Positions 16,866 to 53,567 of a stretch of DNA of 64,000 nt are shown here, piece after piece. Numbering within the stretch: the stretch's first letter is position 1; the number at the start of each line of letters is the position of its first letter. The position numbers were made by a program, and so were the translations under genes. The notes beneath the pieces were generated by a model. The model did no database searches. It saw only the letters and a program-made list of their open reading frames with translations, and was not told the origin of the DNA. This DNA is from Phycisphaeraceae bacterium (GTDB lineage: Bacteria; Planctomycetota; Phycisphaerae; Phycisphaerales; Zrk34), in assembly GCA_028282805.1 (NCBI GenBank), contig JANQHD010000033.1:62001-126000 (forward strand). Direction: 5' to 3'.

Positions 16866-17048
16866 GTGATCGATACGAACTTGGGATGTCGTGCTGGATC
16901 GTGATCATCCGAGGCAAACGGTGCTGCCGGTCGGCCGTGGCCTAGCGTGCTGCGCGCTGTGGCAGGAGCGGGGGCGGGATGGTTTGGCATTTCGTAGGGC
17001 TCGTCACGGTCGGCGTTCGTGTCGCGGGCGTGGCGAGGGGGACAGGAT

Positions 17049-28078: not shown

Positions 28079-31000
28079 CGCCCGAGCAACTGCTGACGTA
28101 CCTGCAACGCCGCGGCGCTCGGTTGTGGGCCGAAGGGGACCGCTTGCGCATCAGCGCCCCGAAGGGTTTGATCAAGCCCGCCGTGCGGGAGCAGCTCGCC
28201 GAGCACAAACAGGCGTTGCTCGAACTCGTCGTCGGCGCGGAACCCGCAACGCAACCCACCCCGCGCGAGCCCGACGTCGGGCACGTGCCGCTGTCTTTCA
28301 CGCAGGGGTGGTTCTGGGGTTTGCAGCAGTGGAACCCCGCCAGCGCCGCGTACAACGTCCACATGGCGTTGCGTCTGGTCGGGCCGCTCGACCCGGCGGC
28401 GCTGCGGCGCAGCTTGGACGAGATCGTCCGCCGGCACCGGGTGTTGCGCACGCGCGTGGTCGCGGTCGGCGGTGAACCGCGGGGCGTGGTGGAGCACGAG
28501 GCGGCCGTCGAACTGCCGCTGGAGGACCTCGGCGATGTTGCAGATGACCGGCGCGACGGCGAAGCGCTGCGCGCGGCCGAGTCGCTGGCGCGCGAGCCGA
28601 TGGACCTGTCGCGCGCCCCGATACTCCGCGCTAAGCTCATCCGACTCGATACGCAAACGCACTTGTTCGTGCTCGTGACGCACCACATCGCGGCCGACGC
28701 GTGGTCGATGCGCATCTTCTGGCACGAATTGGCCACGCTTTATGAAGCTTATCGCAACGGTCGACCGTCGCCGCTCGGCGAACTCGAGACGCAATACACC
28801 GATTACGCCGCGGAGCAGAACGAGTTTCTCGAATCGGCGGCGTGCCGCGAGCAGCTGGACGACTGGGTGGATCAACTCGAGGGAGTCAAGATGATCGGCC
28901 GGGCCAACGGCGGCGGCCCGCAAGCCTCGCCGGAACATACATCTTGCGCCACCCGGGCATTCAAGCTGTCACGCGAGCTGTCGGACGGCATCCGGCAGCT
29001 GTGCCGGCGGCAGGGCGCCACGCTCTTCACGGGCACGCTGGCGGCGCTCAAGGCCTTGCTGCACGCTTATACACAGCAAACCGACCTCGCGATCGGCACG
29101 GCGGTCTCCAACCGCGCCCGCGGAGAGTACGAGCAACTGATCGGCACGTTCGCGAACACGCTCGTGCTGCGCACGCGGCTCGAGCGTGACACGACGTTCG
29201 AGCAGCTGCTCGGCCGGACGCGCGACGTGGTCGTGCAGGCGATGGCGCAGCAGGACCTGCCCTTCGCCAAGCTCGTCGAACATCTGCAGCCCAGCTCGCT
29301 GAGCCAGAGCAACCCGTTCTTCAACGTGATGTTCGTGGTCTTCGAGGGCGCTGCGGGCGAGGCGTTGGCGCTGCCCGGCCTTGCGACGAGCGCCGTTAAC
29401 CTGGTTTCGGGGGCGGCCATGTTCGACCTGAACATGGCGATCACCACCGATCGAGACGGGCGCATCGGCGGCTCGCTGGAATACGATGCACGCTTGTTCG
29501 ATGCGGATACCGTCGCGCAAATGCTCGCCGATTACGAGCTTTTGTTGGCGGCGATCGTCGCGGCCCCGGACCGGCCGATCAGCGGGGCGTTCGACCCGCC
29601 GGAATCGCAACGCCAGCGCCTACTGAAGCAATGGGATCGCGCCGGCGAGCCAGGCGCGACACAGGTCAAGCCACCGCGCCGGCGCGAGCCCGCCGCCACG
29701 CCCGAAACGGTGGGGCGGTGGACTAAAACCGAGCTCGCCTTGAAGCCGATCTGGCAGGAGCTGTTGGGCGTGGAACGGGTTGAACGCGACGACAACTTCT
29801 TCGACCTCGGCGGCCACAGCCTGGTTGCGATGCGCATCGTCGCCCGCGTACGCGAGGAACTGGGCGTCGAGCTGCCGCCGGCGATTCTCTTCGAGCGCCC
29901 CACGCTGCAGGCGATGGCGCAGGCGTTGGACCGCAAGTCGCCGGCGCAACCCCAGGCCGCGCAAACCGCGCCGCACGGCGATGGCGAGAGGCTTCCGCTG
30001 TCGTGTGCGCAGGAGCGCCTGTGGTACATCCACCAGATGGACCCGGAGGACAGCGCCTACAACATCCCCGGCGCGATCAGCCTGTCGGGCGATCTCGACG
30101 TCTCGGCGTTGCAGCAGAGCCTCACCGAGATCGTACGCCGCCACGAGGCGCTGCGCACGAGGTTCGCGATGACCGACGGCGTGCCGCACCAGGTGGTGGC
30201 GCCGCCGTACGAGTACGACCTGGCCACGGTCGACCTGCGCAACAAGGTGAGTGGATTGGATGACCCCGAGCTGCACGAGCGGCTGCACCACGAGGTGGCC
30301 AAGCCGTTCGACCTGGCCGAGGGGAACATGCTGCGCGCCGTGCTGTTCCGGCTGGACGAAGACCTGCACGTGCTGCTGCTGTCGATCCACCACATCGCGT
30401 TCGACGGCTGGTCGCTGGGTGTGTTTGTGCACGAGCTGAGCGCGTTGTACGAGTCGTGCCTGACGCAGACGCCCGCCGGGCTGCCGGAACTTGCGCAGCA
30501 GTACTCGGATTACGCGCGTTGGCAGAAGGAGCAGCTGGCGAGCAACGCGTGGGATCAACAACTGGTGTACTGGAAGCGCACGCTGGGCGGGGCCCCCGCG
30601 GTGCTGGAGTTTCCGACCGACCACCAGCGCCCCGAACTTCAAGCGCACCGGGGCGGGATGCTGGCGGCGTTTATACAGGAGCGGGTCACGCGAGACGTCG
30701 AGCGCGTGGCGCGTGAACTGGGCGTGACGCCGTACATGGTGTTGCTCTCGGCGTACGTGCTTTTGATGCAGAGCTGCACGGGGCAGACGGACATCACGGT
30801 CGGTACGCCCGTGGCCGGTCGGGGGCGACCGGTGTTTGAGCCGATCATCGGCTTCTTCGTGAACATGCTCGTGCTTCGCTTGGACCTTTCCGGCGACGTG
30901 CGTGTCCGGCAGGTCGTCGAACAGGTTCGCAAGGTGGCGTTGGACGCGTTCGACCACCAGGACTTGCCGTTCGACAAGCTGGTTGATGAGATCCAGCCGA

Positions 31001-33186
31001 CGCGGGACCTGAGCCGAAGCCCTTTGTTTCAAGTGGTATTTGCGCTTCAGAACAACCCTTCACCGCCGCTGCGGCTGGGCGACCTCGAGATCGAGGTGAT
31101 GCCTTTCGAGGTCACGACCACGCGGTTCGACCTCGAGATGCACATCCAGAAGAAGGGCGACGGTCTGGGCATCCGCTTCATCTACGACGCGGACCTGTTC
31201 CTGCGCGAGACCGCCGAGCGTTTCCTTGATCGGTACACCCGCGTGGTCGAGCTGCTGGTCGCCGACGTGGATCGCGCGGTGTGTGAGCTGCCCTTGTTGG
31301 ACGAGCGTGAGCGGGAGCAGGTGTTGTACGAATGGAACGACACCGCGCGTGACTACCCGCGCGACGCGGCCGTGCACGAGTTGTTTGAAAGGCAGGCCGC
31401 GACTCGGCCGGACGCCTGCGCGGTGCGTTACGGCCACGAGCGCATGAGCTACGGCGAGCTGAACGCCGAGGCCAACCGTTTGGCGCGTCACCTGCAATCG
31501 CTCGGTGTGCGGCCGGGCGACCTGGTGGGGGTGCTGTTGGACCGGTCGGTATCGCTCGTCGTGAGCCTGTTGGGTGTGCTCAAGGCGGGCGGGGCTTACG
31601 TGCCGCTCGACCCGGAATACCCGGCGGAGCGGTTGCGATTAATGCTCGAAGACACGGGCGCGGCGACGGTGTTGACCAAGGCCACGCACGCGACGGGCTT
31701 GTCGGGTTACTCGGGCCGGGTGTGTTGTCTGGACGAGTTGGACCTGTCGGGTGTCGACGAATGCAACCTTGCAGCGCCTTCGGGCGGCGACCAGCTGGCG
31801 TACGTGATGTTCACGTCGGGCTCGACCGGTCGGCCGAAGGGGGTGTGCGTCGAGCACCGTGCGATCAATCGGCTGGTGATCAACGTGGATTACGTCGAGC
31901 TCGGTCCGGCCGACCGCGTCGCGCAGGTGTCGAACAGCTCGTTCGACGCGGCGACGTTCGAGGTGTGGGGGGCGCTGCTGAACGGCGCGTGCCTGGAGGG
32001 TGTGCCGCGCGACGTGTCGTTGAGCCCGGCGGGCCTGGCGGAGTTTGTCCGCGAGCGCGGTTTGAGCGTCATGTTTCTGACCACGGCGTTGTTCAACCAG
32101 ATCGCGCGGAACCGACCCGACGCGTTTGCGCCCATGCGTTGCGTGCTGTTTGGCGGGGAAGCGGTGGACCCGGTCTGCGTGCGCGCGGTGCTTGAGTCGG
32201 ATGCGCCGGCGCACCTGTTGCACGTGTACGGGCCGACGGAAAACACCACTTTCTCCACTTGGCACGAGGTCACCGAGGTGCCGGCCGATGCGCTGACGAT
32301 CCCCGTCGGCAAGCCCATCAGCAACAGCAAGGCCTACATCCTCGACCGCATGCGCCGCCCTGCGCCGCTCGGGGCGGTGGGCGAGTTGTACGTCGGCGGC
32401 GACGGGCTGGCGCGGGGCTACTGGGACAACGACGCGCTGACGCGTGAGCTGTTCGTGGACAACCCGTACAACGGCAACGCCGGCGCGCGCCTGTACCGCA
32501 CGGGCGACCTGGCCCGTTACCGCAGCGGGGGCGCGATCGAGTTCGTGGGCCGGGCGGACAACCAGGTCAAGGTCCGCGGCTACCGCGTCGAGCCGGACGA
32601 GATCGAATCCACCTTGCGCGGCTGCCCCGGCGTGGAAGAGGTGTGCGTGCTGGCTATGCCCGACGGCAACGGCGCCAACCGCCTGGTTGCGTACGGCCTG
32701 AAAGATGCCGGCGGCGGCGGGCCGACGTACCACGAGGTGGTCGCGTACCTGAAAACACGTCTGCCGGAATACATGCTGCCCTCGGCTTGGGTGCTGGTGG
32801 ATCGATGGCCGTTGAACGCAAACGGAAAGATCGATCGCGCCGCCCTGCCCAAGCCCCAGCGCAACGGTGCCGATATGGAACGGGCCGGTCAGCCGCCCGC
32901 GAGCGACACCGAGCGCTTGCTGGCGTCGATCTGGCAACGCGTGTTGGAGGTGGACGGGGTCGATGTGCACGACAACTTCTTCGACCTCGGCGGGCACAGC
33001 CTGCTGGCGATGGAAACCATCGCGTCGCTCGAAAAGCAGACGGGCGTGCGGCTGAACCCGAAGGAGATGGTCCTGCAAACGCTCGGTCAGATCGCCGCAA
33101 CCGTCGACGCGCAGCTCGCGTCGCAAGCCAAACGGGGCGGCTTCTTCGCCAGGCTCAGGGGCGTGTTTTTGAAGAAGCGGGCGTGA
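28075..33186 (+). CDS. NRPS terminal subunit, docking-C-T-C-A-T, no release domain
   Basis: 1703 residues. A TubC-like docking domain (about 1-60) matches that of the preceding protein. C1 has HHIAADAWS at His203, where the motif Gly is Ala. Carrier T1 has Ser582, C2 has HHIAFDGWS at His772, the A domain (about 1090-1590) reads DAFFLGVTFK, and T2 has Ser1642. The first module has no A domain: a C-A linker remnant (ESQRQRLLKQWDRAGE) passes directly to T1. The protein ends 60 residues after T2 in a basic tail (GGFFARLRGVFLKKRA) with no thioesterase, reductase or terminal C domain. Release therefore needs a separate enzyme. Confidence 0.92.
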   Translation: MTPEQLLTYLQRRGARLWAEGDRLRISAPKGLIKPAVREQLAEHKQALLELVVGAEPATQPTPREPDVGHVPLSFTQGWFWGLQQWNPASAAYNVHMALRLVGPLDPAALRRSLDEIVRRHRVLRTRVVAVGGEPRGVVEHEAAVELPLEDLGDVADDRRDGEALRAAESLAREPMDLSRAPILRAKLIRLDTQTHLFVLVTHHIAADAWSMRIFWHELATLYEAYRNGRPSPLGELETQYTDYAAEQNEFLESAACREQLDDWVDQLEGVKMIGRANGGGPQASPEHTSCATRAFKLSRELSDGIRQLCRRQGATLFTGTLAALKALLHAYTQQTDLAIGTAVSNRARGEYEQLIGTFANTLVLRTRLERDTTFEQLLGRTRDVVVQAMAQQDLPFAKLVEHLQPSSLSQSNPFFNVMFVVFEGAAGEALALPGLATSAVNLVSGAAMFDLNMAITTDRDGRIGGSLEYDARLFDADTVAQMLADYELLLAAIVAAPDRPISGAFDPPESQRQRLLKQWDRAGEPGATQVKPPRRREPAATPETVGRWTKTELALKPIWQELLGVERVERDDNFFDLGGHSLVAMRIVARVREELGVELPPAILFERPTLQAMAQALDRKSPAQPQAAQTAPHGDGERLPLSCAQERLWYIHQMDPEDSAYNIPGAISLSGDLDVSALQQSLTEIVRRHEALRTRFAMTDGVPHQVVAPPYEYDLATVDLRNKVSGLDDPELHERLHHEVAKPFDLAEGNMLRAVLFRLDEDLHVLLLSIHHIAFDGWSLGVFVHELSALYESCLTQTPAGLPELAQQYSDYARWQKEQLASNAWDQQLVYWKRTLGGAPAVLEFPTDHQRPELQAHRGGMLAAFIQERVTRDVERVARELGVTPYMVLLSAYVLLMQSCTGQTDITVGTPVAGRGRPVFEPIIGFFVNMLVLRLDLSGDVRVRQVVEQVRKVALDAFDHQDLPFDKLVDEIQPTRDLSRSPLFQVVFALQNNPSPPLRLGDLEIEVMPFEVTTTRFDLEMHIQKKGDGLGIRFIYDADLFLRETAERFLDRYTRVVELLVADVDRAVCELPLLDEREREQVLYEWNDTARDYPRDAAVHELFERQAATRPDACAVRYGHERMSYGELNAEANRLARHLQSLGVRPGDLVGVLLDRSVSLVVSLLGVLKAGGAYVPLDPEYPAERLRLMLEDTGAATVLTKATHATGLSGYSGRVCCLDELDLSGVDECNLAAPSGGDQLAYVMFTSGSTGRPKGVCVEHRAINRLVINVDYVELGPADRVAQVSNSSFDAATFEVWGALLNGACLEGVPRDVSLSPAGLAEFVRERGLSVMFLTTALFNQIARNRPDAFAPMRCVLFGGEAVDPVCVRAVLESDAPAHLLHVYGPTENTTFSTWHEVTEVPADALTIPVGKPISNSKAYILDRMRRPAPLGAVGELYVGGDGLARGYWDNDALTRELFVDNPYNGNAGARLYRTGDLARYRSGGAIEFVGRADNQVKVRGYRVEPDEIESTLRGCPGVEEVCVLAMPDGNGANRLVAYGLKDAGGGGPTYHEVVAYLKTRLPEYMLPSAWVLVDRWPLNANGKIDRAALPKPQRNGADMERAGQPPASDTERLLASIWQRVLEVDGVDVHDNFFDLGGHSLLAMETIASLEKQTGVRLNPKEMVLQTLGQIAATVDAQLASQAKRGGFFARLRGVFLKKRA

Positions 33187-33204: not shown

Positions 33205-35130
33205 TCACAGGCTGCCGCGCTCGCGATCGGTTGACATCACGAGGCTCATGCACGTCTCGCCCTCACAGAACAGCAGGTTCGACGCGTGCATGCGGTCGAG
33301 CGCGGCGTTGACATCTGTTTCGGTGACGCCGTCGAACCGGCCCTTGAGCTGCGTGCGCTTGGTGGGCTTGTTGATCGCTTCGAGCAGTTCGCAACCCAGT
33401 TCGTCAACCTCGTGTTCGATGGCCACGTCGCTACGCGAATCGTAAACAGCGCCGCCCGACCCCCGCCGGGTCATGACGAGCTCCGGCCGATCCCCCGCGC
33501 CCGTGAGCCACCGATCCCGCCAACGGTTGATCTCACGTTGGATCCGATCGATCCATTTCGCCACGAGTTCCACGTGCGAGGCCTTGACGTTCGCGTCGGT
33601 GAAGAAGTACGCCATGCGCTCGAGGTCGGCGTCGCTGAACGGGTACACCATCGCGTAGAAATCGTAGGGTTGCAGCTTGAGGTTGTGTTCCTCGGCCAGC
33701 ACGAAGTACGGGCTGAACCGGTCGAACCGGATCGGGTACACCCCGGTCGGCGGCGGCAGGTGCAACAGCTTGGGGATGTCGTCGACGTACTTGCGGTAGA
33801 CCGCTTCCTCTTCGCCGGGGAAGCCGATCAGCAGGTTCCACCCGGGTTTCACGCCGTGCCTCAGGCACCGTTGGAGCAGTTGGACGTTCTGGAACGACGT
33901 GATGCCCTTCTTCATCAGCTTCAACGACGAGGTCGCCAACGATTCGATGCCCGGCTGGATCTCCCGCACGCCCGCCGCGGCGAGCACCTTCAGGTCCTTG
34001 TCCTTCAGGTTCGCCTTGGTCTCATAAAACAGGCACGCGCCCTCGGGCGGCGTGATGTGCGGGAACACCTCGCTGAGGTATTCCATGGGCATGATGTTGT
34101 CGACCGACTCGAACTCGGTCACCGCCGGCGCATACCCGAACAGCCGGTTGATCAGCCCGATCGCCTTGCCCGGTTGCATGGCGCGGTAGTTCATGGTCGT
34201 GCCGTTGAGCCCGCAGAACGTGCAGTGCGACCGCTCGCCCCACCAGCAGCCGCGCGAGGTCTCGAACAGCAGCTTGGGCGCGATGCGCTGACCGTGGTTG
34301 AACCGCCCGACCGATGCCATGAAATCGTCGTAGTCGAGCGGCAGGTCGGCGTCGATGTCGAGTTCGTCGCCGATCTCGCCCGAGTTGCCGTCGACTTGCA
34401 GGGCGAGGCGTCGGCGCGAGTACACGCCCGTGATCCGGTGGCATTCGTCACGCTGGCCCGCGAGCAGGCGCTCGACAAAAAGCGGGAATGTGCGCAGCGA
34501 GGGCCCCGAAAACACGTGGTCGATCGCGTCCACGTTCCGTGCGATCACCTGCCCCATGGTCGCCTCGCAGTTTGCGCCGCCGGCGATGACAACCAGGTCT
34601 GGGTTGCGCCGCTTCAACAGCCGCGCCAGCGCGAACGTCGCCACGTTCTGGGCAAACACCGACGTGAACCCGACCACGTCATAGCGGTCGAGCGCGTGCG
34701 CATCGATCAAGCCGTTGAGCACTTGTTCGAGTTGCTCGCGTTTATCCAGCAGCGCCTCGACATCTCCCGTCGACAGCCCGAGCTGCCGGGCGTGGCGCTG
34801 GAAATACTCGTCGCGGTTGTCCGGCCGGTCGGGGAATGCGACCCGTCGGAACAGCCAATCGCCCAAGCCCGCCATCATCGCGCTGACCGAGTCGGCGATC
34901 CGCGTGTACATCGCCACGCCGAAGTGCTCGGCGAGGTCGTGGTTAAAGTAGAAGATGTCCGCCCGCACGCGCTCGCCGAGCTGGGCGCGCAGCGCCGACC
35001 GAAGCTGGGTCAGCGCGATCGATGGCCGGTTGGCCGCGGCGAACGGCATGTTCACCAACGCGACCGCGCACACCCCGTCAGGTTCATGACGCGATGGAGC
35101 AAGGCTGTTCATAGTGTGAGAGGTGATCAT
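33205..35130 (-). CDS. B12-type radical SAM enzyme, RiPP-maturation (bottromycin-like) class
   Basis: 641 residues, convergent with the NRPS genes. The N-terminal half resembles a cobalamin-binding domain (VALVNMPFAAANRPSIALTQ). The cluster motif SRGCWWGERSHCTFCGLNG has spacing C-x7-C-x2-C at Cys295, 303 and 306. That spacing replaces the standard CX3CX2C and is known from RiPP maturases related to the bottromycin C-methyltransferases. The C-terminal 80 residues or so form a separate winged-helix-like domain. I predict C-methylation of an unreactive carbon in the peptide; no RiPP precursor was found beside it. I chose the ATG at 35130 behind a G-rich ribosome site; ATGs at 35154 and 35112 are possible. 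Confidence 0.8.
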   Translation of the reverse strand: MITSHTMNSLAPSRHEPDGVCAVALVNMPFAAANRPSIALTQLRSALRAQLGERVRADIFYFNHDLAEHFGVAMYTRIADSVSAMMAGLGDWLFRRVAFPDRPDNRDEYFQRHARQLGLSTGDVEALLDKREQLEQVLNGLIDAHALDRYDVVGFTSVFAQNVATFALARLLKRRNPDLVVIAGGANCEATMGQVIARNVDAIDHVFSGPSLRTFPLFVERLLAGQRDECHRITGVYSRRRLALQVDGNSGEIGDELDIDADLPLDYDDFMASVGRFNHGQRIAPKLLFETSRGCWWGERSHCTFCGLNGTTMNYRAMQPGKAIGLINRLFGYAPAVTEFESVDNIMPMEYLSEVFPHITPPEGACLFYETKANLKDKDLKVLAAAGVREIQPGIESLATSSLKLMKKGITSFQNVQLLQRCLRHGVKPGWNLLIGFPGEEEAVYRKYVDDIPKLLHLPPPTGVYPIRFDRFSPYFVLAEEHNLKLQPYDFYAMVYPFSDADLERMAYFFTDANVKASHVELVAKWIDRIQREINRWRDRWLTGAGDRPELVMTRRGSGGAVYDSRSDVAIEHEVDELGCELLEAINKPTKRTQLKGRFDGVTETDVNAALDRMHASNLLFCEGETCMSLVMSTDRERGSL

Positions 35131-35204
35131 CCGTACCCACCCCCAACCGTGCATGGTTCACCAAGCATCAGGTATACGAGCAGCGAGCACGGTCGACCCC
35201 ACCT

Positions 35205-35233: not shown

Positions 35234-35240
35234 GAAAATG

Positions 35241-35270: not shown

Positions 35271-35316
35271 GTTCACGCCGTTGACCGATCGCACGCGTGG
35301 AGGGGCGCCGCAGCAC

Positions 35317-36153
35317 ATGGACCCGGGTAACACGACAACCCACGCTTCCCCCACGCCGGGCGAGACCGGCGGGGCGGTGGAGCCGACGCTCTTTCAGGCC
35401 GAGGGGCGCTCGCTGTTCGGCTGCCTGTACAAGCCTGCCACGGCCAACCCCATCGCGGGCGTCGTGTTGTGCAACCCGATCGGCCACGAGTACATCCGCT
35501 GCCACCGCACGTGCCGGCAGCTCGCGATCGCGCTGAACAAGGCCGGCGTCGCCGTGTTACGCTTTGATTACTACGGCACGGGCGACTCGGCGGGCGAGAG
35601 CCACGAGGCGGAATTGGCGCACTGGGAATCGGACACGGCGCACGCGGTCGAACACCTGCGTCGCACGCACGGCGTGCCCGTTTGTGTAGTAGGGCTGCGG
35701 TTCGGTGCGACTGTGGCGTGGTGCGCCGGCGTCGCGGCGTCGCTCGCGGATCAGCTGGTGCTCTGCGACCCGGTCGTCAATGGCAGCCAATACCTCGAAG
35801 AACAGCAACGCCAGCACCACGAACTGGCGGTCAAGCACGGGCACCCCGACGCCGAAGTGAGCGACCGCGTCGAACTGATGGGCCACGACTACGCGCAGCA
35901 ACTGATCGAACAGATGCGCCGGTTGGACCTTGCGCATGTTGTGCCGCCTGCCGCCACGAAAGCGCTGTTGTTACACAACGCGTCGGACACGGTGGGCGAT
36001 CTCGAAGCGGTGTTGCGATCGCCTGCGCGGTCGTTGTCGGTGCGTTCGTACGAAGGGCCGCGCGTGTGGTTGGCCGAGCCCTTCGAAGGGGTGGTGCCGA
36101 TCGGCGCGATCCGTACCATCGTGGAATGGATCAAGCGGAACAACGATGCATGA
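35317..36153 (+). CDS. Alpha/beta hydrolase, exosortase-A-system hydrolase 2-like
   Basis: A 278-residue alpha/beta-hydrolase fold protein (LFGCLYKP, GVVLCNPIGHEYIRCHR, VLRFDYYGTGDSAGES). The nucleophile elbow reads GLRFGA, with Arg where serine hydrolases have Ser. The same GLRxGA elbow is characteristic, from memory, of the exosortase-A-associated hydrolase 2 family. It may therefore bind rather than hydrolyse, or use another residue. It is first in a five-gene operon with the TE and Sfp genes and overlaps the next gene by 8 bp. GGAGG is 13 nt before the ATG; a TTG at 35281 is an alternative start. Confidence 0.72.
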   Translation: MDPGNTTTHASPTPGETGGAVEPTLFQAEGRSLFGCLYKPATANPIAGVVLCNPIGHEYIRCHRTCRQLAIALNKAGVAVLRFDYYGTGDSAGESHEAELAHWESDTAHAVEHLRRTHGVPVCVVGLRFGATVAWCAGVAASLADQLVLCDPVVNGSQYLEEQQRQHHELAVKHGHPDAEVSDRVELMGHDYAQQLIEQMRRLDLAHVVPPAATKALLLHNASDTVGDLEAVLRSPARSLSVRSYEGPRVWLAEPFEGVVPIGAIRTIVEWIKRNNDA

Positions 36154-37027
36154 GCAAGCGGTCATCGTGGGTCAGACGCGCCGGATGGTCGGTGTCATCA
36201 CCGAACCGCGACCGGCGGGCGGCGGCGCGGGCGAGCCGGCCTACATCCTTTTGAACGCCGGCCTCGTGCACCGTGTCGGCCCGAGCCGCTTGTACGTGAA
36301 GCTCGCACGCCGCCTCGCGGCGCAAGGCGTCACCGTGTTGCGCTTCGACCACAGCGGGATCGGTGACAGCGAGGTCGCCCACGACAACCGGTCGTACATC
36401 GAGCGCACGATCATCGAGGCCGGCGAAGCGATGGACACGCTCGATCGTTTACGCGGCATCCGCCGTTTCGTCCTGCTGGGCGTCTGCAGCGGCGCGGCCA
36501 CCGCGTTCCGCGCCGCCACAGAAGACCCGCGCGTGGTCGGGGCCGTGCTGATCAATGCCCAGGCGTTCTACGACGAGCAGGAGTGGAACCGGCACGTGTT
36601 CAACCAGCGGTGGGCGAACGAGTACTGGACGCAATCGCTGTTCCGTTGGGACAGCTGGCGGCGCGCGTTGACCGGCCGCATCCAGTACAAGCGGCTGCTC
36701 GGCGTGCTTGGCCGGCGCGCGAAAAACCTGGTGTGGAAGGACAAGACCGTTCGCACAACTTCCGATCGCCTGCGGCGGGACATCCGGGCCTTGCTCGATC
36801 GCGAGGTGCGGTTGAGCATGATTTACTCTGAGGGCGACCGGGGGCTGGAGTATTTGAACCTTGCGTACAAGAAGGATGCGGCAGCGCGTCTGGTAGAATC
36901 GGGCGTCGCGGTGACGCTCATCCCGAACGCGGACCACACGTTTACGCTGCTGCGCGACCAGCGGCGGCTGATCGAGGCGATCGAACGATGGCGGCAGACA
37001 CCGCTTAACCCCGCCGAGGAGGCGTGA
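36146..37027 (+). CDS. Alpha/beta hydrolase, exosortase-A-system hydrolase 1-like
   Basis: 293 residues, partner of the preceding gene. The fold landmarks are ILLNAGLVHRVGPSRLYVKL, VLRFDHSGIGDSE and the elbow GVCSGAAT. In this elbow the central residue can be read as Cys-Ser, in place of GxSxG. The acid/base end is NADHTF. In exosortase gene sets the two hydrolases occur together with an acyl carrier and AMP ligase, so a thioester- or carrier-linked substrate is plausible. Here the carrier partner could be the NRPS. The start ATG at 36146 lies inside the previous gene. Confidence 0.72.
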   Translation: MHEQAVIVGQTRRMVGVITEPRPAGGGAGEPAYILLNAGLVHRVGPSRLYVKLARRLAAQGVTVLRFDHSGIGDSEVAHDNRSYIERTIIEAGEAMDTLDRLRGIRRFVLLGVCSGAATAFRAATEDPRVVGAVLINAQAFYDEQEWNRHVFNQRWANEYWTQSLFRWDSWRRALTGRIQYKRLLGVLGRRAKNLVWKDKTVRTTSDRLRRDIRALLDREVRLSMIYSEGDRGLEYLNLAYKKDAAARLVESGVAVTLIPNADHTFTLLRDQRRLIEAIERWRQTPLNPAEEA

Positions 37028-37029
37028 CG

Positions 37030-38637
37030 ATGAACCGCAACGCCGCGTGCTGCGCCCTGCTCGTGTCGCTGATGCTCGGCGCGACCAGCTGCGCCAGGGC
37101 CGAGGAACGGGCCAAGCCCGCCGCGGCGCCGGCGGCGCAGGTTCAAACGGACACCCAACCCGCGGTCGCGATCGAACTCGACCGACTCGAGTTCACCGCC
37201 GAGCGCGCGCACGTGCTGCGGTCTTCCGTGTTCTTTAACCCTCGCACGCAAGGCGGGGCGGAGCTTTATTTCAAGGAATACGAAGACCACCACGCGGCGC
37301 GGCTGTTCAACGTGTTCGAGTGGGAGGCGCTGAACTCGACCGATCACGCGTCATTCGCCACGGCCCTGGAGAAACGCCGCCCGTACCTGGAGAAGATGGC
37401 CGACAGCCACGACAAGCTCATCTACGTGATCGCGCTGACGCCCGAGTGGTTGAGCCGGTCGAAAGACAAGCGGGTGGTCGAGGGGCCATGGCGCAGGCTC
37501 CACGCGCACCGCCCGAAGGACTACCGGCAATGGCGCCGGCTCGTGACCACCGCGGCCGGGTTCTTCAAGCAGTTCGACGGCGCCGAGCGCTACTACGAGG
37601 TGTGGAGCGAGCCGGACCTCGGGTACTGGCAGGAGGGCATGGACGAGTACCTGGAGTTGTACGCGCAGACCGCCGCCGCGATCAAGGCGGCCGACCCGCA
37701 GGCCAAGGTGGGCGGCGCCACCGTGAACGGATGGGACGGCAGGCTGCGCGCGTCGCCCGGCCGCGACCCGGTCAACATCGAGCTCATCCGCTACGCGGGC
37801 CGGCGAAACGCCCCGCTCGATTTCGTCTCGTGGCATCACTACGCGAGCCTGCGCGGCGATCTGATCGGCAAGGCGACCGCGGCATACGACCGGGCGGTAC
37901 AGCAGTCCGGCCTAGCCAAGAAGCCCGAGTACGTGATCTCGGAATGGAACAACGTCTCGCTCTTCCGCGACACCGCCTACGCGCCGGCGATGCTGACGGA
38001 GACTTTTCTCGACATCTACAAGTCGAAGGTCGACGTCCACACGCTCGCCGCGTGGGAGGACTTCCACGCCAAGCGGGACAACTCGGGCTACGGGCTCGTC
38101 CGGCAGGGCGGACACAAGAAGCCCGTGTACCACGCGTACCGCTTTCTCGACTCGTTGAGCCGCGACACCGCGGGCGTTGCGCTGATCGAGATGAAAGACG
38201 AGCAGGCCCAGGTTGGCACGCAACGGGTCCTGATTTCGAAGAAGAACGCGCACACGTACGAGTTGGTGTGTTGGCAGATCGGCCACGAGCCGCCCATCGC
38301 CGCCGCGGTCGATTACCTGTTGTCGCGGGGCATGACCCGGCGCGACCTGATGGCGTACGGCGGGTTCGACGAGCTGGCCCAGGCGATTCGCGGGGCGAAG
38401 GCGCGGGACCCGGCGCACGCGGGCTTGTTCAAGACCGCCGCACGCGTGGCGCGCGACCACCGGCGGCAGTCGCGGCCGCTGCGCCTCGTGTTCACCGGGC
38501 GCGAGGCGGTGACCGTGTTGAAGGCGGAAGCCGTTCGGTCAGACTTGGCCGAGAAAACCGTAAAAGTTGCGGGCAACCGATTGGAGTGCGACATGCGCAT
38601 GTTCGAGGTGGTCCGCTTGGAGTTGGAGGTGCGATGA
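37030..38637 (+). CDS. GH39-like glycoside hydrolase lipoprotein
   Basis: 535 residues. The N-terminus is a probable lipoprotein signal with GATSC at Cys21. A TIM-barrel hydrolase core follows: RYYEVWSEPDLGYWQ gives the acid/base Glu (SEP replacing NEP), FVSWHHYAS follows, and VISEWNN gives the candidate nucleophile Glu. The C-terminal part is beta-sandwich-like. Family 39 includes beta-xylosidases and alpha-iduronidases. Its place in the NRPS tailoring operon is unexpected: AGGAGG serves its ATG and the stop overlaps the TE start (ATGA). It may trim a sugar or act on polysaccharide; the substrate is unknown. Confidence 0.72.
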   Translation: MNRNAACCALLVSLMLGATSCARAEERAKPAAAPAAQVQTDTQPAVAIELDRLEFTAERAHVLRSSVFFNPRTQGGAELYFKEYEDHHAARLFNVFEWEALNSTDHASFATALEKRRPYLEKMADSHDKLIYVIALTPEWLSRSKDKRVVEGPWRRLHAHRPKDYRQWRRLVTTAAGFFKQFDGAERYYEVWSEPDLGYWQEGMDEYLELYAQTAAAIKAADPQAKVGGATVNGWDGRLRASPGRDPVNIELIRYAGRRNAPLDFVSWHHYASLRGDLIGKATAAYDRAVQQSGLAKKPEYVISEWNNVSLFRDTAYAPAMLTETFLDIYKSKVDVHTLAAWEDFHAKRDNSGYGLVRQGGHKKPVYHAYRFLDSLSRDTAGVALIEMKDEQAQVGTQRVLISKKNAHTYELVCWQIGHEPPIAAAVDYLLSRGMTRRDLMAYGGFDELAQAIRGAKARDPAHAGLFKTAARVARDHRRQSRPLRLVFTGREAVTVLKAEAVRSDLAEKTVKVAGNRLECDMRMFEVVRLELEVR

Positions 38638-39404
38638 ACCGTGCGGATGCCGAGCTGTGGTTGACGTGTTTGCGCCGCGAGGCCGGGGCGCAACTGCGGT
38701 TGCTCTGCCTGCCTTACGCCGGTGGGGGCACGCTGGCGTACCGGCCGTGGGCCGAGCGTTTGCCGCACGGGGTCGAGTTGTGGGCGGCGCAACTGCCGGG
38801 GCGTGAGAAGCGGTTGGCCGAGCCGCCGCCCGACGCGATGTCGCCGATGGTCGCAGCGATCGCCGATGCCGTCGAGCCGTGGGACGCGACGTCGTTTGCG
38901 GTGTACGGCCACAGCATGGGCGCGCAGTTGGGTTTTGAACTGGCACGCGAGTTGCGGCGCCGCGGCGCAAGCGGGCCGACCCGCCTGCTGGTCAGCGGTT
39001 GCGTCGCGCCGCAGGTGCCGTGCCCTTACCCGCCGATCCACGCGCTGTCCGACGGGCCGTTCATCGAAGAGCTGAAAAAACTCGGCGGGACGCCGGACGA
39101 GGTGTTGCGGTCGGCGGAGTTGATGGCGTTCGTGCTGCCGGTGATCCGGGCGGATATCACACTCTCCGAGAACTACGCCTGCCGCGATGAGCCGCCGCTC
39201 GGTTGCCCGATCAACGTGTACGGCGGCCTGGCCGACCCGGTCACGGATCGCGAGGGTTTGGATGCGTGGCAGCGGCAGACAACCGGGCCGTTCAAGTTGC
39301 GGATGTTCCCCGGCGACCACTTCTTCATCGACGCGTGCGGGGCGGTATTCTTCGACGCGTTGGCGGCCGACCTGCAACCGAGCCCGACGGATTCGCTTAA
39401 ATGA
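38634..39404 (+). CDS. Type II thioesterase for NRPS editing or release
   Basis: A 256-residue alpha/beta hydrolase of the type II TE family (RLLCLPYAGGGTLAYRPWAE at the start). The nucleophile Ser94 is in YGHSMGAQ. An Asp in GGLADPVT and a His in PGDHFF complete the triad. Such enzymes remove misprimed acyl groups from carrier proteins. Because the NRPS chain has no cis thioesterase, it may also release the peptide (inference). It is translationally coupled to the gene before it, and the PPTase gene follows after 16 bp. Confidence 0.9.
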   Translation: MNRADAELWLTCLRREAGAQLRLLCLPYAGGGTLAYRPWAERLPHGVELWAAQLPGREKRLAEPPPDAMSPMVAAIADAVEPWDATSFAVYGHSMGAQLGFELARELRRRGASGPTRLLVSGCVAPQVPCPYPPIHALSDGPFIEELKKLGGTPDEVLRSAELMAFVLPVIRADITLSENYACRDEPPLGCPINVYGGLADPVTDREGLDAWQRQTTGPFKLRMFPGDHFFIDACGAVFFDALAADLQPSPTDSLK

Positions 39405-39420
39405 TGAGCGTCTTTTCACG

Positions 39421-40170
39421 ATGAGTGCGCTACCCGAGTGGCCAGCACCGACCGAGACGCCGACGCTCGCCGGCGACCGTGTTCACGTCTGGCAGGTGGC
39501 GTTGGGGTGTTCGGATCGCGTGGCCGCAGGCCTGTCGCGGGCGCTGGGGCCCGCGGAGTTGGCGCGGGCCGAGGCGTTTCGGTTCGATACGGATCGGCAC
39601 GACTTTGTGGTCAGGCGCGGCGTGTTGCGCCGCGTCCTCGCGGGCTACCACGGGTGCGCCCCGGGTGAGTTGACGTACACGCACACGCCGTTCGGCCAAC
39701 CGGTGTTGTGCGGGCCGGGGAACGCGGCGGGCTTGCGGTTCAGCGTGTCGAGTTCGGCGGGGTGGGCGCTGATCGCGGTGGCGCGCGATCGGGCGGTCGG
39801 TGTGGACCTTGAGCGTGTCGAGCCGAGGCGGGCCGATGACGATCTGGCCACCCGCTTCTTTGCCCCGGGTGAGGTCGAACAGTTAGCCAAGTTAAAAGGC
39901 CAAGTTAGGGTGCGTGCGTTTTTCGATTGTTGGACGCGCAAGGAGGCGTACATCAAGGCTCGCGGTGAGGGCTTGTCGCTTGCGCTGGACTCCTTCGGTG
40001 TGCCGGTCCAGGCGGATCGGGCCGACGGTTTGCTCTGGAGCAGCGAGGGGCTTGGCGAGGTGGACCGCTGGGCGATGGAGGCGTTGCCCTGCGGGTCGGA
40101 TTACGCCGGCTGCGTGGTGGGCGAGGGGCGCGGATGGACGCTGGACCTGTGGCGATGGTCGCTGGGGTAG
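39421..40170 (+). CDS. Sfp-type 4'-phosphopantetheinyl transferase
   Basis: 249 residues. It transfers phosphopantetheine from CoA to the carrier-domain serines of the NRPSs. Two signature blocks are present: VGVDLERVEP with the Mg-binding acidic residues, and FFDCWTRKEAYIKARGEGL (the WxxKEAxxK motif). The length matches the broad-specificity Sfp group rather than AcpS. It is last in the operon that begins at 35317, and supplies activation for all six carrier domains of the cluster. Confidence 0.93.
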   Translation: MSALPEWPAPTETPTLAGDRVHVWQVALGCSDRVAAGLSRALGPAELARAEAFRFDTDRHDFVVRRGVLRRVLAGYHGCAPGELTYTHTPFGQPVLCGPGNAAGLRFSVSSSAGWALIAVARDRAVGVDLERVEPRRADDDLATRFFAPGEVEQLAKLKGQVRVRAFFDCWTRKEAYIKARGEGLSLALDSFGVPVQADRADGLLWSSEGLGEVDRWAMEALPCGSDYAGCVVGEGRGWTLDLWRWSLG

Positions 40171-40322: not shown

Positions 40323-40770
40323 TAGACATAACCGGGGGGGATTGTTCGGCTTCACGAAGCGACAAGCCTTTTGTGTCGGGTCAGGTTGTCTCAGATCGTG
40401 ACAAGAGTTCCGATGTGTTGCCGACCTCGTCGGTTGGCGAACGGTCGCGCATCGGGTGGTTGGGAGCATTAGAAATTAAGGGAGGATGCGGTAGCGTGTA
40501 GCAAGCCCGTGGGGGGGCGATCCTATCACTTCGTGGCGGCACGGCCGCCGGTTTACGCAACGCTGATTTCGTTCGGGTGGGTTGACGCGCCGCCGTCGGG
40601 CGGTCGGTGTCTGCGGCGTTAGGCAAGAACGGGCGGCCGGACGCGAAGGGGATTGGGAGGATGGTGTGGACCACAGGTCGCCATCACGTGGCTCTTGCGG
40701 GAGTTCGGTGAACGCTGCACGGTGCGACGAGGGCGTGGATTTGTGTCCTCGTTCGGCCGCGGTTCAGGCA

Positions 40771-42678
40771 ATGGGGGTGGAAAAAGCCAGGCATCTGCAT
40801 TTACCGGAACCGGTCGTGGTCGAATGCCCCACACCGGACGCTTCGCCTGCGCCCGAAACGTTGTGCGACACACAGACGTGCAAGGCCGTGGTGCTGGCGG
40901 GCGGGCCGGGTTCGGTGCGCATGCCGTTTTCTAACGGCCGCCACAAGCTGGGGCTGCCGTACATCGACGGCGAGCCCCTGCTCGCGCAGCTGCTCGAGTC
41001 GTTGCACGCCAACGGCATCCGCGAGGTCGCGGTGGTCATGTCCGAGCGGCAGGACCACCGCCGGCTGGTCGAGGAAGTCGTTGCCAGCGCGTCGACGGCG
41101 CTGCCGCGTGTGACGTGCTTCATGGACAACGGCCTGGTCGGCACGGGCGGCGCGCTGGCGCCGCTGGCGGCATGGGTCGACCAATCGGAGATGCTCGTGC
41201 TCGGGGCGCACGTGGTGCTCAACGGCAACGACCTGCGCCGGGTGATCGCCGAGCACCGCGACCGCGAGCACTCGGTGACCGTGCTCATCGATCGTCAGGC
41301 GAGCCGTTCGAACGGCGAGCCGGAGGCGGGGGGCGAAACGTTCAGCGGCGTCTACGTGATTGCGCCCGAGGTATTCCAATACCTGCCCGCCGACCACTAC
41401 CTCGACATCAAAGAGCAGCTTTTGCCGGAGCTCGAGCGCAACGGGGTTGAGGTTCATTACATGGAGGCCTCGGAGCCCGTCGTGCGGATCAACAGCGCCG
41501 ACGACTACATGGCCTGGACGCGCGATTGCATGACCAAGCACGCGCCGCGCCCGGGCGGCAACGGCAACGGAAATGGCAACGGCAAATCGATGCGTGAGGT
41601 CCGCGAGCGCGTCTGGGCTGGGCGCGGGGTCGAGATCGCACCCGACGCGGCGATCACCGGGCCCGTCACGATCGGCGCCGGCACCAAGATCGCCAGCGGG
41701 GCGACGATCGTCGGGCCGACCACGATCGGCTGCGACGTCGTGGTCGGCCGCGGCGCGACGGTTCGTGCGAGCCGGGTTTGGGTCGGCTGCCGGATCGGCG
41801 AGGGCGCGACCGTGGGGGACAGCCTGCTGACCGAGCATTGCGACGTGCCGCGCGGCGGTGCGATCGACAGCGCGGTCGTCGTGCAGGCTTCGCACCTCGG
41901 CCGGCACGACCTACGGGCGTTGTGCGCCGGCCACTCGGACCGGATCGTGCTCATTTCGGGCCACGCGGGCCTGCGCGGGGCGGCGGAGGTCCGGCTGCGC
42001 GACCGGGTCGCCGCGATGGTGATGCGGGCGATCGACCTGGTCGTCGCGGGTGGGTTGCTGCTCGTGCTCTCGCCGTTGTTCGTCGTGATCGCGATCGCGA
42101 TCCGGTTGGATTCGAAGGGGCCGATCTTCTTCCGCCAGCAGCGCTGCGGCCTGTCGGGCAAGCCGTTCATGATGCTCAAGTTCAGGTCCATGGTCGACAA
42201 GGCCGATCGCGGTCAGCAGCAGTTGGCCGACGCCAACGAGATCGACGGGCCGATGTTCAAGATCGCTTTCGACCCCCGCGCGACCCGGGTGGGGCAATTG
42301 CTGCGCGCGATGAGCCTCGACGAGCTGCCGCAGCTGCTGAACGTGTTGCGCGGCGAGATGAGCATGGTCGGCCCGCGCCCGCTCGCCCGCGAAGAGATGC
42401 AGTTCTGCCCGCAGTGGCGCGACGCGCGACTGACCGTCAAGCCCGGCATCACCGGCTTGTGGCAGGTGCACGGTCGGTGGTCCGGTGTCTTCCACGACTG
42501 GATCAAGTACGACCTGCAATACGTGCGGCGGCAATCTGTCGCCTTGAACTTGAAAACGATCCTGCAAACGGCGATAATTATCCCCGTTCAGATCGTTGAT
42601 CAACTGGTCGGCCTTCTACGAAAGTCCGTGAAGCGTGCCGACCCGGCAGGTGCCAGCCATTCGCAGGGGTCTGACTAA
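40771..42678 (+). CDS. Fused nucleotidyltransferase, beta-helix and initiating sugar transferase
   Basis: 635 residues in three parts. First is an NDP-sugar pyrophosphorylase-like domain ([14 protein letters not shown], then [12 protein letters not shown]). [11 protein letters not shown] linker follows. Then comes a left-handed beta-helix of hexapeptide repeats ([20 protein letters not shown]). Last is a WcaJ/PglC-type sugar transferase with one membrane helix ([20 protein letters not shown]), [18 protein letters not shown] and [20 protein letters not shown]. The last domain should load the first sugar phosphate onto undecaprenyl phosphate. I chose the ATG at 40771 since the open frame before it lacks family similarity; the ribosome site is weak. 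Its TAA overlaps the next ATG. Confidence 0.82.
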
Positions 42679-43457
42679 TGTGGATTCGACCGTATCTGCG
42701 TCGGGCATCGACAACCTTCCTTGTTCTGGTTTGCTTGACCCTGACCGCGTGCGCGACGGCGCCCAAATCGCCGGAGAACACCAAGGGCTTGAGCTACGCG
42801 CCCGGCGACGACACGCTGAGCCTCGGGCCCGGCGATGAGATCGAGATCCGGGTCTACCGCCACGACGACCTGAACCAGCGCGTGACCGTGCCGGGTTCGG
42901 GGGTGATCTACGTGCCGTTGGCCGGCGAGATCGACGTGCGCGGCATGGACGCCTCGGAACTGCGTCGCACCCTCGTCGCCAAGCTGGACGCGTACGTCGT
43001 CGACCCCCGGGTCAACGTGACCGTGCCCGTGCGCCGCAGTCAACGCCTGGTCGTGCTCGGCGAGGTCAACCAGCCCGGCACGCTCGTCATGGACGGCCCG
43101 ACCAACATGGCCGAGGCGATCGGCCTGGCCGGCGGCTTCACGCTGGACGCCGACAAGCAGCGCGTGGTCCTCGTGCGGCGCGACGGTGAGGGCAAGCCCG
43201 TGCCGTATGTGCTGAACATCGAACAGGCGCTGAGGGCGGCGCGGCTCGAGAACAACCCGCAGATCAAGCCCGGCGACGTGGTCTACGTGCCGCCCAGCCA
43301 GTGGGCCGAGGCCGACCGGATCGCGTTGCACATCGCCCGGTGGATGACGCCGATCTTATCGGTGGAGCAGGCCATCCTGCTCGGCTACGACCTGGACTCG
43401 GCGTTCGCGGGCAACCGGACCGGCGCGCGTGACACCAACGTGATCGTCGCGCCCTGA
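42678..43457 (+). CDS. Wza-like polysaccharide export lipoprotein
   Basis: 259 residues with lipobox LTAC (Cys25). A polysaccharide-export domain (LGPGDEIEIRVYRHDDLNQR, VPLAGEIDVRG) is followed by an SLBB segment (VVLGEVNQPGTLVMDG, IGLAGGF). These proteins form the outer-membrane channel for capsular or exopolysaccharide. The C-terminus has a short amphipathic end and not the long helix of E. coli Wza. It is one base overlapped with the sugar transferase gene. Confidence 0.88.
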   Translation: MWIRPYLRRASTTFLVLVCLTLTACATAPKSPENTKGLSYAPGDDTLSLGPGDEIEIRVYRHDDLNQRVTVPGSGVIYVPLAGEIDVRGMDASELRRTLVAKLDAYVVDPRVNVTVPVRRSQRLVVLGEVNQPGTLVMDGPTNMAEAIGLAGGFTLDADKQRVVLVRRDGEGKPVPYVLNIEQALRAARLENNPQIKPGDVVYVPPSQWAEADRIALHIARWMTPILSVEQAILLGYDLDSAFAGNRTGARDTNVIVAP

Positions 43458-43603
43458 CGTGGGCCACGCCGGAACGCCAAAGGATCGGGCGAGCGGCGCT
43501 GTGCAGTGTGAACGTGGTGGGTCGCGGATCGCCACGGAGTTGAGTGTTGTGGATGTAGCGCCGGTGATTGCCCCGCACGTGCGCCGAACCGACGAGACGC
43601 AAG

Positions 43604-44650
<1,047 letters not shown>

Positions 44651-44653
44651 GCC

Positions 44654-45454
44654 ATGCGATTGCCGTACGCGTTCTTCAAGAGAGACTACCTCGTCGCGGT
44701 CAGCTACCGCACCGCGTTCACGATGCAGATCCTCAGCATCCTCGCGTTCGTGCCGGTCTACTTCTTCCTCGGCAAGCTCTTCGGCGACACCGCCTCGGGC
44801 ATGCTCGACAACTACGGCGGCAGCTACTTCGCGTTCCTGCTGATCGGCATGGCCTTCCTGGCCTACATGAACACCTCCCTGCGCACGTTCAACATGAGCC
44901 TGCGCGAGAGCCAGCTCATGGGCACGCTGGAGATCGTGCTCTCTTCGCCCACGCCGCTGTGGAAGGTGCTGGTCTACTCCTCGCTCTGGTTCTACATGCT
45001 GACCACGGTCCAGTTCGGCCTCTACCTGCTCGTGGGCCTGCTGTTCGGGCTCGAGCTCGGTGACGCCAACCTGCTCGGCAGCATCGTGGTCCTGTTCCTG
45101 GGCGTGATCAGCTTCGCCTCCTTCGGCATCCTCACCGCGAGCGTCGTTATCATCATCAAGCAGGGCAACGCGCTGAACGCGATGGTGTCGTACGTCTCGC
45201 TGATCCTCGGCGGCGTGCTCTACCCCGTCGAGGTCCTGCCCGGTTGGTTGCAGATGATCGCCAAGGTGTTGCCCATCACCCACGCGCTGGCGGGCATGCG
45301 CATGGCCCTGCTCAACGGCGCGTCGTGGTCGCAGCTCCTGCCGTACATCGGCATCCTCTGTTTGTTCGGTTTGGTCCTGTTGCCGACGGCGATCCTCAGC
45401 TTCGCCTACGCCGTGCGGTTGAGCAAGATCAGCGGCACGCTCGCGCAGTACTGA
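44654..45454 (+). CDS. ABC-2 type transporter permease
   Basis: 266 residues with six hydrophobic helices in ABC-2 arrangement. The Arg-rich amphipathic start (PYAFFKRDYLVAVSYR) and the conserved loop SLRESQLMGTLEIVLSSP match antibiotic and polysaccharide exporters. SYVSLILGGVLYPVEVLPGW is the typical fifth-helix region. It forms the channel with the preceding ATPase. Confidence 0.88.
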   Translation: MRLPYAFFKRDYLVAVSYRTAFTMQILSILAFVPVYFFLGKLFGDTASGMLDNYGGSYFAFLLIGMAFLAYMNTSLRTFNMSLRESQLMGTLEIVLSSPTPLWKVLVYSSLWFYMLTTVQFGLYLLVGLLFGLELGDANLLGSIVVLFLGVISFASFGILTASVVIIIKQGNALNAMVSYVSLILGGVLYPVEVLPGWLQMIAKVLPITHALAGMRMALLNGASWSQLLPYIGILCLFGLVLLPTAILSFAYAVRLSKISGTLAQY

Positions 45455-45486
45455 TCGGCCGGCCCGCGTCCCGTTGCCCCAGGTGT

Positions 45487-46332
45487 ATGACGATGAAGAG
45501 CCTGTTCCGAGCCGCCATCCGAGCCATCTACCGAGCCTTGCTGCCGAAGCAGGCGAAGAACACGCTGGCGCTGTGGTTGATGCTCGACCGGCAGGACCAC
45601 GCCCCCGAGCCGATCACGGCGTTCGATGATCGGCCGGTCGTCGTGCTCGCGCCGCACATGGACGACGAGGTCATCGGCTGCGGGGGCACGCTGCTGCGCC
45701 ACATCGCCGCGGGGGCGCGCGTCTGCGTCGTCTACCTGACCGACGGCCGCCGGGGCAACCCCGACCTCTACGAATCCCGCGCATCGCCCGATGAGGTCCG
45801 CGCCGCCGAGCTGGCGCTCGTCGAACAACGCAAGGCCGAGTCACGCGAAGCGGCGCAGGTGCTCGGCATCCATGAGCTCGTCTTCCTCGACGCGCCCGAC
45901 ACCCAGTTGCAAGCGACCGACCAGATCGCAGCGCGCGTGCGCGAGGTCATCGACCAGCACCGGGCGGCCTACGTCTACCTGCCCTCGCCGCTGGACACAC
46001 ACGACGACCATTGGGCCACGAACCTCGTGCTCGACCGCGCCTTGCGCAACTCAACCGAGCGCTGCCAAGCCATTTTCCGGGGGTACGAAGTCTGGTCGCC
46101 GCTGTGGGCCAACCGTGTCGTCGATATCACCGAACAGATCGATGCCAAGTCACGCGCCCTCGCTTGCTTCGTGTCACAGACCCGGCGTGTCGATTACGCC
46201 CGCGCGACCGAAGGCCTCAACGCCTACCGGTCGATCCACGTCGACAAGGGCCAAGGCCACGCGGAGGCTTTCCTCGAAATGACCCCCAGCCAGTTCACGG
46301 AACTGATCGAACGCCAGAGGCACAAAGCGTGA
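45487..46332 (+). CDS. PIG-L family deacetylase
   Basis: 281 residues with the LmbE/PIG-L zinc site: APHMDDEVIGCGGTL supplies His, Asp and Asp, and SPLDTHDDHWATN supplies the later His. The family removes N-acetyl groups from sugars such as GlcNAc-type residues. Located between the exporter and the glycosyltransferases, so it probably modifies a sugar of the repeat unit. ATGs at 45487 and 45493 are both possible. Its TGA overlaps the next gene's GTG. Confidence 0.85.
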   Translation: MTMKSLFRAAIRAIYRALLPKQAKNTLALWLMLDRQDHAPEPITAFDDRPVVVLAPHMDDEVIGCGGTLLRHIAAGARVCVVYLTDGRRGNPDLYESRASPDEVRAAELALVEQRKAESREAAQVLGIHELVFLDAPDTQLQATDQIAARVREVIDQHRAAYVYLPSPLDTHDDHWATNLVLDRALRNSTERCQAIFRGYEVWSPLWANRVVDITEQIDAKSRALACFVSQTRRVDYARATEGLNAYRSIHVDKGQGHAEAFLEMTPSQFTELIERQRHKA

Positions 46333-51261: not shown

Positions 51262-51431
51262 AAGTCTAATAATGCTAAGTAATTACAAAAACTTGTGTGG
51301 CAAAGTATGTGTGTGTGTTTTAAAATATGCCAGGGGAATGGTTGTTGCTGCAACATATCTCATCATCGCGGCGGTTTTGACTTTGATATGGACCGTGGAC
51401 GGGGACGGGACCAACTGCAACCCATACGGGA

Positions 51432-53548: not shown

Positions 53549-53567
53549 GCGAGGCTGTGCTGTCGAA

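Follow-up and report, generated by a model that had tools for sequence, protein, structure and literature searches.

A tandem alpha/beta hydrolase pair as a candidate trans-acting unloading station for thioesterase-less nonribosomal peptide assembly lines

Introduction

Thioesterases (TEs) of nonribosomal peptide synthetases (NRPS), whether of type I or type II (RifR and others), have the alpha/beta hydrolase fold and act on carrier-bound thioesters; the RifR-like type II family clears stalled carriers, and the Sfp family primes carriers. Product release can also take place in trans, which is already known as a kind of step. In the surugamide system, a TE-less NRPS is offloaded by the standalone enzyme SurE, a single protein of the beta-lactamase superfamily, while the alpha/beta hydrolase SurF was not the offloader (PMC7459860).

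Two further alpha/beta hydrolase families are already known by name, namely TIGR03101 (hydrolase 2, exosortase A system-associated) and TIGR03100 (hydrolase 1, exosortase A system-associated). They are encoded in tandem with hydrolase 2 first, have Arg and Cys-His, respectively, as characteristic residues and stand directly behind a carrier protein. At amino acid–[acyl-carrier-protein] ligase loci of Azospirillum and Mycetohabitans, a fused form of the pair is accompanied by a glycoside hydrolase and a free-standing carrier protein, and the place of an NRPS is taken by an aminoacyl-tRNA synthetase (aaRS)-like ligase, an enzyme that loads a single amino acid. The TIGR03100-like protein Bcam1334, from the Burkholderia Bcam1330-1341 exopolysaccharide (EPS) cluster, was earlier compared with AlgL, PelA and PslG (PMC3584217). 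In the open-access literature, we found no account of the hydrolase pair as an NRPS release enzyme or as a general carrier-unloading module.

Here we describe a hydrolase pair that shares the gene order, the Cys-His and Arg residues and the upstream carrier of TIGR03100/TIGR03101, but for which a multimodular NRPS supplies the carrier as its last domain, in place of a free acyl carrier protein (ACP), and which scores under both family cut-offs and belongs to a separate lineage. It resembles SurE-type offloading cyclases as a putative standalone release system for a TE-less NRPS, but would consist of two alpha/beta hydrolases and use Cys as its nucleophile. The case of SurF calls for caution in proposing such a role for hydrolases. 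Unlike NRPS thioesterases, the pair lies outside PF00975, one partner lacks a nucleophile and the other has Cys in place of Ser.

Results

The window (the whole stretch of DNA analysed, 64,000 nucleotides) contains two adjacent hydrolase genes:

35317..36153, + strand: hydrolase-2-like alpha/beta hydrolase (gene 1; 277 aa plus start)
36146..37027, + strand: hydrolase-1-like alpha/beta hydrolase (gene 2; 293 aa)

Their reading frames overlap by 8 nt. An initial annotation, made from the DNA letters, had likened them to the exosortase-A hydrolases and would have dropped the idea had neither family matched; both did. Using NCBIfam profiles, gene 1 matched TIGR03101 with 87.9 bits (E = 7.5e-25; under the cut-off of 202.75) and gene 2 matched TIGR03100 with 115.6 bits (E = 2.5e-33; under the cut-off of 168.45). 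The two proteins are relatives of exosortase-A hydrolases 2 and 1 that fall outside both curated equivalog cut-offs. Neither matched the NRPS thioesterase family PF00975 in Pfam; a separate gene at 38634-39404 does. The nucleophile elbow of gene 1 reads GLRFG, with Arg and without the catalytic Ser, as had been noticed at the outset, and that of gene 2 reads GVCSG (Cys114), with a downstream His264.

These residues are conserved among relatives. Of 74 aligned hydrolase-2 rows, 72 have Arg at the nucleophile position and the other 2 have Gly; Arg also stands there in 30 of 31 rows of a phylum set (window row left out) and in 29/29 rows from a scan of Burkholderiales. Hydrolase 1 had Cys in 75 of 78 rows (Ser in 3) and His in all 78, with Cys and His together in 27/27 rows from Burkholderiales. 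Judged by these alignments, the loss of Ser in gene 1 is common to hydrolase 2 as a family and is not local decay; one subunit keeps Cys-His and the other is a conserved pseudo-enzyme. Since only 30 of the 78 hydrolase-1 rows have Asp where the acid residue normally stands, a full catalytic triad is not established for that subunit. Gene 1 probably encodes a non-catalytic partner or carrier-docking subunit, and we propose gene 2 as the putative catalytic subunit for release or transfer.

Structure models placed both proteins among ordinary alpha/beta hydrolases (AlphaFold pLDDT 92.4 for gene 1 and 91.6 for gene 2). A fold search with the models gave generic esterases and lipases only as the nearest solved structures, and sequence and fold searches of the PDB returned generic alpha/beta hydrolases only, with no informative relative. 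Such fold neighbors, hydrolases and esterases, are what one would expect if the pair acted on the carrier-bound chain by hydrolysis or cyclization to give a free peptide, the polysaccharide genes described below being a separate locus. SurE provides a precedent for a standalone offloader (PMC7459860), but the replacement of Ser by Cys in 75 of 78 hydrolase-1 rows speaks against release of a free peptide, which we regard as rather unlikely.

Upstream of the pair lie three NRPS genes and a gene on the opposite strand:

17019..20690, + strand: NRPS 1, A-T-C-T (Pfam domains, sequence)
20687..28078, + strand: NRPS 2, TubC_N-C-A-T-C-A-T-nitroreductase-type oxidase (Pfam; the second C apparently of the heterocyclization type)
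28075..33186, + strand: NRPS 3, TubC_N-C-T-C-A-T with a short basic C-terminal tail (Pfam, sequence)
33205..35154, - strand: B12/radical-SAM C-methyltransferase-like protein (TIGR03975, 540 bits; over the cut-off of 281.85)

NRPS 3 terminates in a bare carrier domain: in neither its Pfam domains nor its sequence is the final T domain followed by a TE, a reductase or a terminal C domain. This is in line with the earlier remark that the last module has no release domain. Two C-T stretches of the NRPS (17019-33186, + strand), at the end of NRPS 1 and the start of NRPS 3, are without an adenylation domain, which suggests trans loading or skipped modules. The placement of the pair within the NRPS operon had to be given up: because the opposite-strand radical-SAM gene at 33205-35154 intervenes, the pair lies outside the NRPS transcript, and the distance from the last carrier domain to hydrolase 2 is 2278 nt. 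The family of the intervening protein, TIGR03975, is one of RiPP C-methyltransferases, here sited within an NRPS cluster.

Behind the pair, three genes follow closely:

37030..38637, + strand: GH39-family glycoside hydrolase (PF01229, 64.1 bits; N-terminal signal-like stretch)
38634..39404, + strand: type II (editing-type) thioesterase with GHSMG (PF00975, 144.6 bits; RifR, 1.4e-45)
39421..40170, + strand: Sfp-type 4'-phosphopantetheinyl transferase (PPTase; PF01648, 64.2 bits; HetI-type profile 154.4 bits, under the cut-off of 370)

The pair thus heads an operon with a type II TE and an Sfp-type enzyme, as first annotated, though the GH39 gene between the pair and the TE had gone unmentioned. 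Compared with the PDB, the GH39 protein matched GH39 beta-xylosidases (best E = 6.6e-15). A promoter and terminator scan of 35100-40650 gave 0 promoter-like and 6 terminator-like signals (4.5 expected for the latter), none clearly above chance. Among 60 relatives searched, gene 2 was matched at E <= 0.001 in only 7 and strongly (1.4e-15) only in one (G032), so the island is patchy within its own order; the viral contigs searched held no relatives of gene 2.

We then surveyed one genome per species, across 84,980 species, for relatives of hydrolase 1, with an alignment of four NRPS-linked pairs (A3) as the query in place of a first alignment (A1) that was too diverse for a scan of the collection. 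The survey confirmed 125 relatives, and the best 80 were analyzed as loci, with neighborhood profiles built from Pfam-confirmed domains. According to record titles, these best 80 of 125 come from Planctomycetota, Chloroflexi, Gemmatimonadota, Acidobacteria, Proteobacteria, Myxococcota and other groups. They include the named strains Hydrogenophaga intermedia S1, Hydrogenophaga borbori LA-38 and Bradyrhizobium centrolobii BR 10245, which makes the proposal testable.

The usual order in the best 80 of 125 loci was a terminal T domain, hydrolase 2 and hydrolase 1. The initial annotation had suggested co-occurrence with NRPS as a check on its proposal, and a T or ACP domain was found within 1500 nt upstream on the same strand at 70 of 77 hydrolase-2 anchors (those with at least 600 nt of usable upstream sequence, among 85 anchors in the 80 loci), compared to 0 of 30 control alpha/beta hydrolases, which were the best-scoring PF12146 loci from 30 of 34 phylum genomes. 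The window itself falls outside this 1500-nt limit, at 2278 nt, because of the intervening radical-SAM gene. At 82 of the 85 anchors, a tandem hydrolase 1 came after hydrolase 2. The last module was C-A-T at 46 of the 80 loci, KS-AT-KR with an adenylation-like domain and T at 12, and PKS-T at 5, while 11 of 80 had no T domain upstream within the sequence covered. In these best 80 of 125 loci, the carrier reading frame continued for a median of only 36 residues past the T domain, leaving no TE after the last carrier. At three Hydrogenophaga loci (L148, L153 and L155), two convergent NRPS-hydrolase 2-hydrolase 1 sets lie a few kb apart.

Because the 80 loci came from a query of four NRPS-linked pairs and are biased towards NRPS-linked matches, an unselected scan of the phylum matters. 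There, 34 of 392 genomes matched TIGR03101 at 1e-15, none of them over the cut-off, with a carrier domain upstream at 19 of 34 anchors and a tandem hydrolase 1 at 17 of 35; four of the 80 loci (L093, L115, L120 and L131) share contigs with members of this phylum set. Ten loci of the phylum scan have a free ACP and hydrolase 2 but no tandem hydrolase 1 (L054, L057, L058, L063, L066, L073, L075, L077, L078 and L081), so the two hydrolases do not always occur together.

Gene fusions point the same way as adjacency. At nine loci (L101, L111, L117, L119, L138, L159, L060, L208 and L209), a carrier domain and hydrolase 2 are joined in a single frame; the L060 protein reads C-T-hydrolase 2 in Pfam and NCBIfam. 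Hydrolase 2 thus occupies the place of a thioesterase. Fusion of hydrolase 2 to hydrolase 1, seen at L056, L068, L169 and plasmid loci, supports a complex of both.

The nine fusions, the carriers upstream and the missing TE behind them strongly support the original suggestion of the pair as a candidate for releasing or transferring the chain. A terminal thioesterase found elsewhere and acting on the line had been named as what would refute it, and the RifR-like enzyme at 38634-39404, encoded in the operon of the pair, could release the chain, with the hydrolase pair editing or serving another step. The alpha/beta hydrolase SurF of the surugamide system, which was not the offloader there (PMC7459860), is in keeping with this. 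A type II TE was present, however, at only 10 of the 80 loci (flanks covered), compared to hydrolase 2 at 77 of 80 and hydrolase 1 at 80 of 80 (the last by construction, hydrolase 1 being the query), and what is fused behind the last carrier is hydrolase 2 rather than a TE. Release by the type II TE is improbable on these counts.

Next, the exosortase-A setting was examined in 200 genomes from the order of Hydrogenophaga intermedia. TIGR03101 was matched in 37, of which 29 exceeded the cut-off (206-363 bits) and the rest scored 70-114 bits, with one at 155. In the 30 exosortase-A type loci, defined as the 29 over the cut-off and the one at 155 bits, the order was carrier protein-hydrolase 2-hydrolase 1, with the carrier upstream in 28 of 30 and hydrolase 1 downstream in 28 of 30. 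At L204, TIGR03101, TIGR03100, the TIGR03098 ligase and the TIGR03099 decarboxylase are all over their NCBIfam cut-offs, and a carrier protein lies immediately 5' of hydrolase 2.

Further settings include plasmids of Azospirillum, Mycetohabitans and Cupriavidus (free carrier protein, acyl-CoA dehydrogenase, amino acid-[ACP] ligase, DUF1839, GH2 and a fused pair) and a polysaccharide locus of Shinella (fused pair with ACP, AMP-ligase and PLP enzyme); a fused pair in Caballeronia departs from the pattern, with no carrier protein annotated nearby. What most settings share is the carrier protein, rather than an exosortase or an NRPS. Another possibility is that the pair modifies exopolysaccharide directly, as a deacylase or esterase in quality control, and sits behind the NRPS by coincidence. 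The GH39 gene after the pair and the TIGR03100-like Bcam1334 of a Burkholderia EPS cluster (PMC3584217) agree with it, but carrier adjacency in both kinds of locus (70/77 and 28/30, compared to 0/30 in controls) and the carrier fusions make direct action on the polysaccharide quite improbable, slightly more so than release by the type II TE.

On a hydrolase-1 tree of 137 rows (FastTree, with local support values only and several long branches), a single change separates exosortase-A rows from NRPS/PKS rows. As read from this tree, the NRPS-linked pairs are a lineage separate from the exosortase-A pairs. In three genomes (G422, G437 and G438), a hydrolase 2 that scores over the cut-off coexists with one that falls under it. 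With scores far under the cut-offs as well, the terms 'recruited' and 'exosortase-associated' in the initial annotation are unsupported as worded, and given the one-change split we rejected the idea that the pair had been acquired locally and recently from an exosortase locus.

The genome has two exosortases, both on a different contig from the window, and no exosortase, TIGR03098 ligase or TIGR03099 decarboxylase was found among the window reading frames scanned around the pair. Just 5' of the NRPS, the protein encoded at 15919-16707 (+ strand) has a terminus, PEPASVVLLGGACLLTLATRPQR..., that resembles a PEP-CTERM sorting signal by eye and by pattern; NCBIfam gave no match for this protein. 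Together with the two exosortases and the family name, it is what one could cite for a role of the pair in exosortase/PEP-CTERM protein sorting. We rejected sorting as the main role, with no exosortase near the pair and both hydrolases under cut-off, and since relatives follow NRPS/PKS in many phyla, we consider any part in it highly improbable.

Finally, we examined what lies downstream. Beyond the PPTase, after a gap of about 0.4 kb, the window continues with sugar genes:

40582..42678, + strand: composite nucleotidyltransferase/hexapeptide/bacterial (initiating) sugar transferase (PF00483, PF25084, PF02397)
42678..43457, + strand: polysaccharide export (Wza-like) protein (PF02563, 72.7 bits)
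43568..45454, + strand: DrrA/DrrB-like ABC exporter, two genes (TIGR01188, PF01061)
45244..56421, + strand: PIG-L deacetylase, five GT4-type glycosyltransferases, methyltransferase, Wzy_C polymerase/ligase and Wzz-like chain-length protein

The region from 40582 on is a Wzy-type polysaccharide locus. Similar genes follow the pair elsewhere. The locus most like the window, L104, has an NRPS, a radical-SAM protein 49% identical to that at 33205-35154, hydrolase 2, hydrolase 1 and then flippase-, sugar nucleotidyltransferase- and sedoheptulose-7-phosphate isomerase-like genes, all under curated cut-offs; two nitrogenase/NifE-like proteins come after these sugar genes (L104:14586-17489). At L138, a T-hydrolase 2 fusion is accompanied by PPTase, TE, Wza-like, GT4 and PIG-L genes.

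Among 89 downstream reading frames (heuristically picked, plus strand only, 89 of 181 picks scanned), Pfam matches included Glyco_transf_4 (6), PPTase (6), Polysacc_synt flippase (4), sugar nucleotidyltransferase (3), GT2 (3), polysaccharide deacetylase (3) and polysaccharide lyase (2). In 89 control frames (of 94) from arbitrary regions of the carrier genomes, no family occurred more than 3 times, and no glycosyltransferase or flippase was among the 25 families listed. With a GT4 profile, we found 22 reading frames in 525,966 nt downstream, at 17 of 62 loci, compared to 1 in 20 control regions of 12,001 nt, a contrast that may be understated because the control regions, which share contigs with some loci, include polysaccharide-export genes (L271 and L287). 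These genes, and the exosortase-A-type and aaRS-like-ligase loci that have no NRPS in the stretch covered, argue further against release of a free peptide, while the 0.4-kb gap between the PPTase and the first sugar gene would suit it. Downstream glycosyltransferases and flippases make a glycan acceptor plausible, as a matter of co-location and not of chemistry.

Discussion

The same pair follows TE-less lines or single carriers in many phyla, and it is therefore probably the missing unloading step of this one, a two-subunit station that would act in trans on a TE-less NRPS. Behind this proposal stand the observations that the line lacks a release domain, that Cys-His and Arg are conserved, that the hydrolases lie next to carriers or are fused to them, and that the NRPS-linked pairs form a distinct lineage. 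Once complete, the peptide would remain thioester-linked to the carrier domain that closes NRPS 3. The Arg-type pseudo-hydrolase of gene 1 may hold the carrier domain or the complex, as the carrier-hydrolase 2 fusions and recurrent adjacency suggest, and the Cys-His hydrolase of gene 2, to go by its conserved residues, could accept the chain as an acyl-cysteine and pass it on to an acceptor or to water. The RifR-like TE would free stalled carriers and the Sfp-type enzyme would prime them. As for the acceptor, co-location makes a sugar of the exopolysaccharide encoded downstream the foremost candidate, if still a tentative one that falls somewhat short of even chances.

A broader and more speculative extension, which we hold to be possible but doubtful, is that the NRPS-linked pairs and the exosortase-A hydrolases to which they are related belong to a single, widespread family of transferases with two subunits, which serve to carry chains from a carrier protein to a glycan. 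A Cys enzyme and its pseudo-enzyme partner would move aminoacyl, acyl or whole nonribosomal peptide chains onto exopolysaccharide precursors, and the products of many unassigned TE-less NRPS/PKS clusters would thus be peptidyl- or polyketidyl-polysaccharides instead of free small molecules.

The proposal gives a function to two hydrolase families so far named by neighborhood only, and could explain product release from many TE-less NRPS/PKS lines in several phyla. If the acceptor is a glycan, clusters now mined for small molecules would make modified surface polymers.
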